Below, in pieces: positions 2,758-51,034 of a stretch of 60,336 bases of DNA. The stretch covers positions 1 to 60,336 of the forward strand of contig CANQSY010000002.1 of the NCBI GenBank assembly GCA_947626635.1. The letters run 5' to 3'. The first letter of the stretch is position 1. Every line of letters starts with the position of its first letter. A model generated the notes under the pieces. It was not told the origin of the DNA and did not search any database. It saw only the letters and a program-made list of their open reading frames with translations. Made by a program: the position numbers and the translations under genes. The DNA is from an uncultured Akkermansia sp. (GTDB lineage Bacteria > Verrucomicrobiota > Verrucomicrobiia > Verrucomicrobiales > Akkermansiaceae).

Positions 2758-3573
2758 TCAGATCCCGGGAGGGAGGTGGAAGAAACGACGAGCATTGTCG
2801 GTGGTGATCCGTTCGATCTCGTCATGTGATTGACCGCGGAGGTGGGCTATTTTGGCGGCTACGAGAGAAACGCGTCCCGGAAAATTGAGTTGTCCCCGGT
2901 AGGGTTCCGGAGACAGGAAAGGAGAATCCGTCTCCAGCATCAGGCGATCCTCCGGGCACCATGCTGCTACATCCCGCACAGCTTCCGTCTTCTTGAACGT
3001 TATCAATCCCGTGAAGGAGATCATACCGTCGAGGTCGGAAAATATGCGCTCCGCCTGCACACGCGTGCCGATGAAGCAATGGAACACGGGGCGAACTCCC
3101 GGAAACTCGCGCGCAATAGCAAAGGCGTCCTCAAAGCAGGCCTGGCCCGCACCGACCTTATCACGCGTATGCAACGAAATGTTTAAGCCAAGGTCGCTCG
3201 CAAGCTGGAAATGGCGCTCCAGGTAGTCGCGTTGCCGAGCACGACAGGCATCCTCCGTCCAGCCTTCCGGTGCATCCCAGTAGTAATCGAGACCAGTTTC
3301 GCCGACGGCGGCCAGTGTATTCTCACGAGCCAGTTGCACCATTTGCCGCCAGTGTTCATCCGTTGTTTCTGTACAATCCGAGGGATGGACCGCCAGACAC
3401 GGCACGATAAAATCCGGAAATTGACGGGCTCCCGCTAAGGTGCGCGCCCAATCCTCATGGCTCGTCCCCTGAGAGATGCACAGGTCAACCCCGAGCGCAC
3501 GCGACTCTTCGCGAACAGCTGCAAGATCCTCATACCGTTGCGAAGCGAGATGACAGTGTGTATCAATGAGCAT
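2758..3573 (-). CDS. tatD: TatD family metal-dependent hydrolase
   Basis: 271 residues from the ATG at 3573. It is a TIM-barrel metallohydrolase of the TatD/YcfH/YjjV group. Family motifs appear in order: HCH metal ligands at residues 6-8, GETGLDYY with the metal-binding Glu, SLHTR, FHCFIGT, and ETDSPFL near the C-terminus with the last catalytic Asp. Characterised members are 3'-5' exonucleases or D-aminoacyl-tRNA deacylases; which applies here cannot be told from sequence. An in-frame ATG 18 bases upstream exists, but the promoter -10 box ends eight bases before 3573, which favours this start. It is divergent from the gene at 3786. Confidence 0.9.
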   Translation of the reverse strand: MLIDTHCHLASQRYEDLAAVREESRALGVDLCISQGTSHEDWARTLAGARQFPDFIVPCLAVHPSDCTETTDEHWRQMVQLARENTLAAVGETGLDYYWDAPEGWTEDACRARQRDYLERHFQLASDLGLNISLHTRDKVGAGQACFEDAFAIAREFPGVRPVFHCFIGTRVQAERIFSDLDGMISFTGLITFKKTEAVRDVAAWCPEDRLMLETDSPFLSPEPYRGQLNFPGRVSLVAAKIAHLRGQSHDEIERITTDNARRFFHLPPGI

Positions 3574-49870: not shown

Positions 49871-49881
49871 AAACGCTGTCA

Positions 49882-49910
49882 CTTATACACGTTTGAAACT
49901 CATTTGTCAA
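49882..49910 (-). promoter_or_regulatory. Promoter of argS
   Basis: On the minus strand: TTGACA (49905-49910, perfect), 17-bp spacer, TATAAG (49882-49887), 11 bases, ATG at 49870. Confidence 0.7.
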
Positions 49911-49931
49911 TCCTACCCCATGTGAAATATA

Positions 49932-49947
49932 TGTTCCACGTGGAACA
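49932..49947. promoter_or_regulatory. parS site (ParB-binding palindrome)
   Basis: TGTTCCACGTGGAACA is an exact 16-bp palindrome and equals the parS sequence known from Pseudomonas, a close variant of the B. subtilis site. It lies in an untranslated region beside the argS promoter. With the imperfect copy at 48018 it suggests this region belongs to the origin-proximal partition domain. Confidence 0.8.
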
Positions 49948-49949
49948 AT

Positions 49950-50375
49950 AGAGTCGAATGCGAGGATGACAAAACCTACCTGTCATTTTGCATCAATGCT
50001 TCCAATGATGATAGACTACTGAATATACCTCTTCCTAAGAACAATGATTCCTACGATCGTCAAAAAGATTCAAGAAGCCGCTGTGCCGTCGGCGGTAGGA
50101 AAGCCACGTTCCCAGAAGTTAAGGTGGGTGCGGGGTCGGGTTTGCCTGAGGTATCCATAAAGGACGGAACATGAAACCCTGAACACGATGCTCCCTTATC
50201 AGTTTATAACGGTCCGGGCTGTATGTACCGCGCGTCACGTGCACAGCAGCGATTTTATGTATAGCACACGGAAGAGAAATGTTCAAGTCAATCTTACGTC
50301 AACATCAAAATAAAATAGAAATTTCGTGGACCTCCGGAACCCGTGAAAGGAGCTTACTGAAAAATGAAAGAAAAA
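49950..50375. other. Gene-poor region between argS and a lipoprotein gene
   Basis: No convincing protein gene. It contains a GC-rich island (about 50073-50255) with long-range complementarity, annotated as a candidate RNA, set in AT-rich sequence. Confidence 0.5.
50065..50257 (+). ncRNA. Candidate structured RNA, rod-like (possibly 6S-like)
   Basis: A GC-rich island in AT-rich DNA folds by eye into nested helices: GCCGCTGTGC (50077-50086) with GCACAGCAGC (50241-50250, one mismatch); GCGGTA (50092-50097) with TACCGC (50226-50231); AGCC (50102-50105) with GGCT (50217-50220); CGTT (50107-50110) with AACG (50208-50211); and GGGTTT (50138-50143) with AAACCC (50174-50179). The closing stem, internal loops and apical stem, at about 180 nt, recall 6S RNA, but I see no conserved 6S sequence and the identity is unproven. 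A TACGAT box (50052-50057) could be its -10. GATTTTATG after the closing helix could aid termination. The strand is not certain. Confidence 0.4.
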
Positions 50376-50404
50376 TTGACAAGAAAGAGAAGGATTGGTA
50401 CTCT
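50376..50404 (+). promoter_or_regulatory. Leaderless-type promoter of the lipoprotein at 50411
   Basis: TTGACA (50376-50381), 17-bp spacer ending in TGG, TACTCT (50399-50404), six bases, GTG at 50411. This rules out a start at 50279. Confidence 0.7.
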
Positions 50405-50410
50405 GGTGAT

Positions 50411-51034
50411 GTGAAGAACGTCTACAGAGTGGTGATGGGGATTATCATGGGGTTTGTTGTAAGTTCCTGTGCGTATATGCAAACTCATAAAAACGTTGAG
50501 GAAGTGGGAAGCTACTATGCGGGACATTTGCTGCGTCAACAGGACATGCAACTGTACAGGGCAGGGGAGAAATGGTATCTGGCGGCATATCCTGCAAAAT
50601 TTCGATTGAAGTATCCGGTAGTTTATGATTCCGTGTTTCGCCGAAAAAACAGTGCGCCTCACTTTCAGCTGATAAATTATGAACAGCAACTTCATTTTCA
50701 TGAAATATCACCTTCGGCAGCGAAAGTCCTGATGCGGCCGGATGGATATTTCCGGATGGATGCTCTGGTGGATAATATTAAAAAGAACTCCGGTGAATGG
50801 ATATCACATCTACCTGCGGGCGCTTCTCGTCTACCTGTCCATGCAGAACTTAGTGGTCATCAATCACAGTCAATCGAAGAAGAACGTGTACCTTCAAAGA
50901 AAACACTTCTTGGACTCACACTTGGCAAAATCGATTTCATCATCGTTGATGTTCCGGGTACACTTGCTTACAATGTAGCCATTCCCTTTATGGCTCCCTT
51001 TGTTTTCTTCTATGAATTCTCGACAGAACATTAA
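50411..51034 (+). CDS. Predicted lipoprotein of unknown function
   Basis: 207 residues from the GTG at 50411. A short signal ends in the lipobox VSSC with cysteine 20. The mature protein begins with Ala-Tyr and is rich in Tyr and Arg (YYAGHLLRQQDMQLYRAGEKWYLAAYPAKFRLKYP). The C-terminus contains a hydrophobic stretch (FIIVDVPGTLAYNVAIPFMAPFVFFYEF, about 178-205) that could re-insert in membrane. I know no family. Codon use and base composition look AT-richer than in most neighbours, as does ribD, hinting at a different local composition or transfer. Confidence 0.7.
   Translation: MKNVYRVVMGIIMGFVVSSCAYMQTHKNVEEVGSYYAGHLLRQQDMQLYRAGEKWYLAAYPAKFRLKYPVVYDSVFRRKNSAPHFQLINYEQQLHFHEISPSAAKVLMRPDGYFRMDALVDNIKKNSGEWISHLPAGASRLPVHAELSGHQSQSIEEERVPSKKTLLGLTLGKIDFIIVDVPGTLAYNVAIPFMAPFVFFYEFSTEH

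Follow-up and report, generated by a model that had tools for sequence, protein, structure and literature searches.

A 6S RNA gene beside argS in an Akkermansia genome

The locus and its match to the 6S RNA family

The window analysed here is a 60,336-nucleotide stretch of DNA from an uncultured Akkermansia sp. (GenBank assembly GCA_947626635.1, contig CANQSY010000002.1, positions 1 to 60,336). Approximately 190 bases upstream of its listed argS open reading frame (ORF), and co-directional with it, lies a short element that a sequence-only reading had put forward as a candidate structured RNA, with no strand given. We consider this element, with a probability of about 0.96, to be the single-copy 6S RNA gene of the Akkermansia genome, located on the minus strand, equipped with its own sigma-70-type promoter and encoding a rod of about 180 nucleotides (nt). 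6S RNA regulates RNA polymerase and is widespread in bacteria. Judged by its match to the family model, the window RNA is an ordinary 6S RNA (SsrS, RF00013), and its relation to 6S RNA is one of homology, beyond likeness of form.

When positions 49880-50420 were scanned with an E-value threshold, RF00013 matched 50073-50255 on the minus strand over the full length of the model (1-187 of 187; 39.8 bits, E 1.2e-6), and the single further match was at chance level (E 6). In contrast, a search of the whole window with Rfam at gathering thresholds reported one tRNA alone and missed the 6S locus, and on that result taken alone the feature would have stayed unexplained. RF00013 matched the window's own genome (2,155,318 bases in 155 contigs) once. 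A covariance model built from 26 genus sequences, R1, in which the window supplies one of the 26 rows, matched 50071-50255 on the minus strand at 179.8 bits. The matches are 183-185 bases long, near the 180 nt expected of 6S RNA. Thus, the long rod-like fold that had been proposed is present, with its strong closing helix, at nearly the exact coordinates, and the resemblance to 6S RNA that had been remarked on proved to be correct and homologous, given the RF00013 match, the distribution, the covariation and R1. The statement that no known family was recognised did not hold, as RF00013 matches the element over its full length, though below the cut-off.

The DNA itself occurs in 32 of the 59 genomes that were searched (its own included), all from one genus. 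Conservation in relatives had been set beforehand as a test of the candidate, and indeed R1 detects a single copy in each of 73 genomes among the 76 of the genus, the genomes from which R1 was built included. In one of the three genomes without a copy (G019), a contig ends 125 bases from the start of argS, and argS itself gave no match in the other two (G005 and G079), so assembly gaps likely explain the misses. RF00013 matches 65 of the 76 genus genomes (the window's own included), 5 of them above the cut-off, and 143 of 188 genomes sampled from the class, 101 of them above the cut-off and the best at 94.2 bits. Seven genomes were reached via named loci; R1 matches all seven and RF00013 six, with RF00013 scores of 35.7 bits for A. 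muciniphila CSUN-56, 42.2 bits for A. muciniphila Mouse_2 and 59.5 bits for A. glycaniphila Pyt. 6S RNA is easily missed in Akkermansia because most copies score just below the Rfam cut-off, and annotation by this cut-off would miss most of them (above it in 5/76 genomes).

Fold, covariation and promoter

The RNA has a GC content of 55.7%, compared to 37.4% and 35.9% in its flanks (49883-50072 and 50256-50400). The earlier description of a GC-rich island in AT-rich DNA is therefore accurate locally and fails for the window overall, which has 54.0% GC. The folding energy of the minus strand has a z-score of -2.75, with 1 of 200 shuffles as good.

Covariation was counted over 26 aligned genus sequences, using a MAFFT alignment, 500 shuffles and controls with slid partners. 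In the 6S-type structure, 88.4% of 1190 cells are paired, both sides have changed in 17 of 46 pairs, 70 cells show a double change (mean of 23.5 in the shuffles), and the covariation score is 0.219 versus 0.125 in the shuffles. None of the 500 shuffles was as high for paired cells, double-changed pairs, double-changed cells or covariation score, and covariation at paired positions, to which the sequence-only reading had also looked, is thus present. The closing stem (helix 1) is paired in 90.0% of cells and has both-side changes in 8 of its 21 pairs, the helix on the side of the bubble (helix 2) is paired in 99.0% of cells, and the terminal stem (helices 3-7) in 72-92% on the MAFFT alignment. 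The closing stem, large central bubble and terminal stem of a 6S RNA can all be recognised, with compensatory changes. Read as the minus strand, the alignment holds 122 G-U cells and 29 A-C cells, and the plus-strand reading reverses these counts; the occurrence of G-U rather than A-C at variable pairs identifies the minus strand as the RNA.

In the window, TTGAAC-N17-TATACA, with TG before the -10 box, precedes the 5' end on the minus strand (Table 1). A pattern of this kind, CTTG-N17-20-TANN, composed after the sequences had been inspected, is found upstream in 38 of 38 copies and on the other strand in none (shuffled mean 1.3), so that a promoter-like motif of its own accompanies the gene throughout. 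The candidate had been proposed without a strand; the fold is real, and both the RNA and this motif belong to the minus strand. A generic promoter scan did not list the minus-strand 6S promoter, because its -10 hexamer lacks the final T, and the 2 other sites it listed are close to the 0.9 expected by chance. Within 16 nt past the closing stem (50057-50076 in the window), a run of at least five T is present in 20 of 38 copies and one of at least four T in 27 of 38; from this uncontrolled count, the T runs are perhaps part of a terminator built on the 6S stem.

Several observations weigh against the assignment as a 6S RNA gene with its own promoter. The window copy scores below the RF00013 cut-off (39.8 versus 46.4 bits, the latter being a curated gathering cut-off, that is, a curation threshold and no biological feature), and in 71 of 76 genus genomes no match exceeds it. 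The number of further pair types in the alignment is not above that of the shuffles (40 versus 41.6; 403 of 500 as high), and the terminal stem is aligned poorly by MAFFT (helix 3: 72.3% of cells paired). Sliding the 3' partners lowers pairing to 34.6-46.2% of cells, but the structure was drawn with the window fold in view and this control therefore favours it. As for the promoter, the 38 of 38 refers to a pattern chosen post hoc, and the stricter TTG-N17-20-TAWNA matches just 11 of 38 copies.

Table 1. Coordinates of the 6S RNA gene and its predicted parts in the window, and of the 6S match in two sister argS records.
Feature	Position	Strand	Basis
6S RNA (SsrS)	50071..50255	minus	RF00013 and R1 matches
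Probable +1	about 50252-50250	minus	Distance from -10
Closing stem, 5' arm	50226..50250	minus	Helix 1 of covariation count, dot-bracket coordinates
Closing stem, 3' arm	50077..50097	minus	Helix 1, partner arm
Helix adjoining central bubble, 5' arm; predicted pRNA template	50211..50220	minus	Helix 2
Helix adjoining central bubble, 3' arm	50102..50112	minus	Helix 2
Central bubble, 5' strand	50196..50210	minus	Unpaired between helices 2 and 3
Predicted pRNA start template, U	50208	minus	Analogy with E. coli; GG rule (PMC8414754)
Terminal stem and apical hairpin	50126..50195	minus	Fold; weaker pairing on MAFFT alignment
-10 box TATACA, TG before	50258..50263	minus	Motif kept in 38/38 copies
-35 box TTGAAC, 17-base spacer	50281..50286	minus	CTTG kept in 38/38 copies
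6S match in record L097 (argS at 3001)	2712-2897	plus	
6S match in record L111 (argS at 3001)	2679-2864	minus	

Predicted pRNA and relation to known 6S RNAs

The short RNA that polymerase copies from 6S RNA, the product RNA (pRNA), would begin AACGGUCCGGGC if its start lies opposite the U that we take to match the E. coli pRNA start. All 26 copies have U at this base; the predicted pRNA starts A(A/U)CGG in 23 of them, placing GG at positions 4/5, and AACAG in the other 3. By sequence analogy, the template start would lie on the 5' side of the bubble, as in other 6S RNAs. For E. coli, A. aeolicus and R. sphaeroides, PMC8414754 places GG at pRNA positions 4/5; both the predicted start and this register agree with those of other Gram-negative 6S RNAs. 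It also describes a conserved adenine adjoining the pRNA start site, a feature that is half present in Akkermansia, where the 6S base beside the predicted start is A in 13 of 26 copies and G in 13 of 26.

We infer that the gene is transcribed and, from its family membership, that its RNA binds polymerase and is a template for pRNA synthesis. Minus-strand transcription from the TTGAAC-N17-TATACA promoter would yield a rod of about 180 nt consisting of closing stem, central bubble and terminal stem. By analogy with the family, the bubble would mimic an open promoter and hold the housekeeping RNA polymerase holoenzyme under starvation, and during recovery the polymerase would copy a short pRNA and then be freed. 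Polymerase sequestration and release driven by pRNA are reported for 6S RNA in PMC8414754.

The Akkermansia RNA resembles 6S/SsrS RNAs of RF00013 in its full-length covariance match, closing stem, central bubble and terminal stem, in the register of its predicted pRNA start, in its own promoter-like motif and in being present as one copy per genome. It differs from typical members in scoring below the cut-off, with a diverged sequence, and in the location of its gene beside argS, in either orientation, in many species of the genus. According to PMC8414754, the 6S RNAs of lactic acid bacteria likewise have a conserved GG early in the pRNA and were found via covariance models and synteny, but there the GG occupies positions 5/6 rather than 4/5 and the gene neighbours are rarA/uspA rather than argS. 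Ms1 RNA of actinobacteria shares the 6S-like form but is described in PMC9130861 as binding the polymerase core, whereas for the Akkermansia RNA it is the 6S family model that gives the match.

Within the searches made, this is a newly located member of a known family and of low surprise, and the general picture of 6S RNA is unchanged. It adds a housekeeping RNA polymerase regulator to the inventory of an intensively studied gut genus, with coordinates, strand and a predicted pRNA now given for direct test. No description of an Akkermansia 6S RNA was found in titles and the starts of abstracts of open-licence PMC papers, and we make no claim that it is new to the literature. A wide survey of 6S RNA was reportedly made by Wehner and others in 2014.

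Alternative explanations and the argS neighbourhood

A rod that folds on one strand invites the question of the other, and the plus strand indeed folds too (-63.6 kcal/mol), as the complement of any rod does. Its z-score is however -0.55, with 54 of 200 shuffles as good, so energy by itself backs the minus strand only; its RNAalifold consensus fold is weaker (-17.15 versus -29.4 kcal/mol), its variable pairs are A-C instead of G-U, and it has the promoter motif in 0 of 38 copies and no RF00013 match. We therefore see next to no likelihood that the structured RNA is read from the plus strand. It also seems very improbable to us that the element is a new structured RNA, non-homologous to 6S, that converged on a 6S-like rod. 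The scores of the window copy and of most Akkermansia copies below the cut-off would fit such convergence, but in five genomes of the genus the orthologous RNA scores above the cut-off, A. glycaniphila Pyt clearing it too, and class relatives score far higher still; in addition, the window match spans the full model with a fitting pRNA register, and the whole-genome search gave no second, better 6S gene.

The position of the RNA in the window, shortly upstream of argS and in the same direction, would suit a structured argS leader, that is, a regulator in the 5' untranslated region. To compare neighbourhoods, we used the ArgS protein, whose nearest named records are Akkermansia and Akkermansiaceae (up to 76% identity), with other Verrucomicrobia (50-61% identity) also among the 80 records kept. 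A full 6S match lies within the DNA examined in 44 of the 80 named argS loci, and a match that is cut short in one more. In 35 of the 44 full-match loci the RNA is directed away from argS, and in 9 along it. In three records named A. muciniphila (L127, L128 and L134), there is no 6S match in the DNA examined around argS, though the genomes do contain one, so the 6S gene sits elsewhere there. Given the away orientation and the displaced copies, a role as argS leader cannot be the conserved role of the RNA, and we regard this explanation as highly unlikely.

For the 6S RNA gene itself, these loci point to changes of orientation. On a tree of ArgS with 47 rows, the label 'same direction' changes at least four times. 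In the sister records L097 and L111, both flanks are collinear (71% over 2.4 kb, and 79% over 1.9 kb including argS), whereas the 6S match of 183 bases (86% identity) runs in the opposite direction (Table 1); on this alignment, the difference between the two is an inversion of the 6S gene in place. Across the genus, in-place flips of the gene next to argS have happened several times. That 6S RNA and its promoter form a small unit, repeatedly inverted in place beside argS/parS and co-directional or divergent depending on the species, strikes us as rather unlikely. If true, the repeated inversion could mean a local inversion process at the site, or tuned read-through into argS. In one genome (G059), the 6S gene lies between frames that resemble, by eye, mutT and an efflux adaptor.

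On the other side of the 6S gene from argS, an ORF of 251 amino acids, the putative lipoprotein gene of the sequence-only reading, begins at 50279 (50279-51034). Its listed ATG overlaps the minus-strand -35 box, and the real start of the ORF may thus be further in. Between the 6S gene and argS lies a parS-like palindromic 16-mer, TGTTCCACGTGGAACA (49932-49947); a parS beside the candidate had been noted before, and the palindrome is indeed there. A scan listed one terminator-like site on the minus strand, versus 0.7 expected, and this site is the palindrome itself (49947-49932). An identical 16-mer is also located between 6S and argS in a number of relatives.
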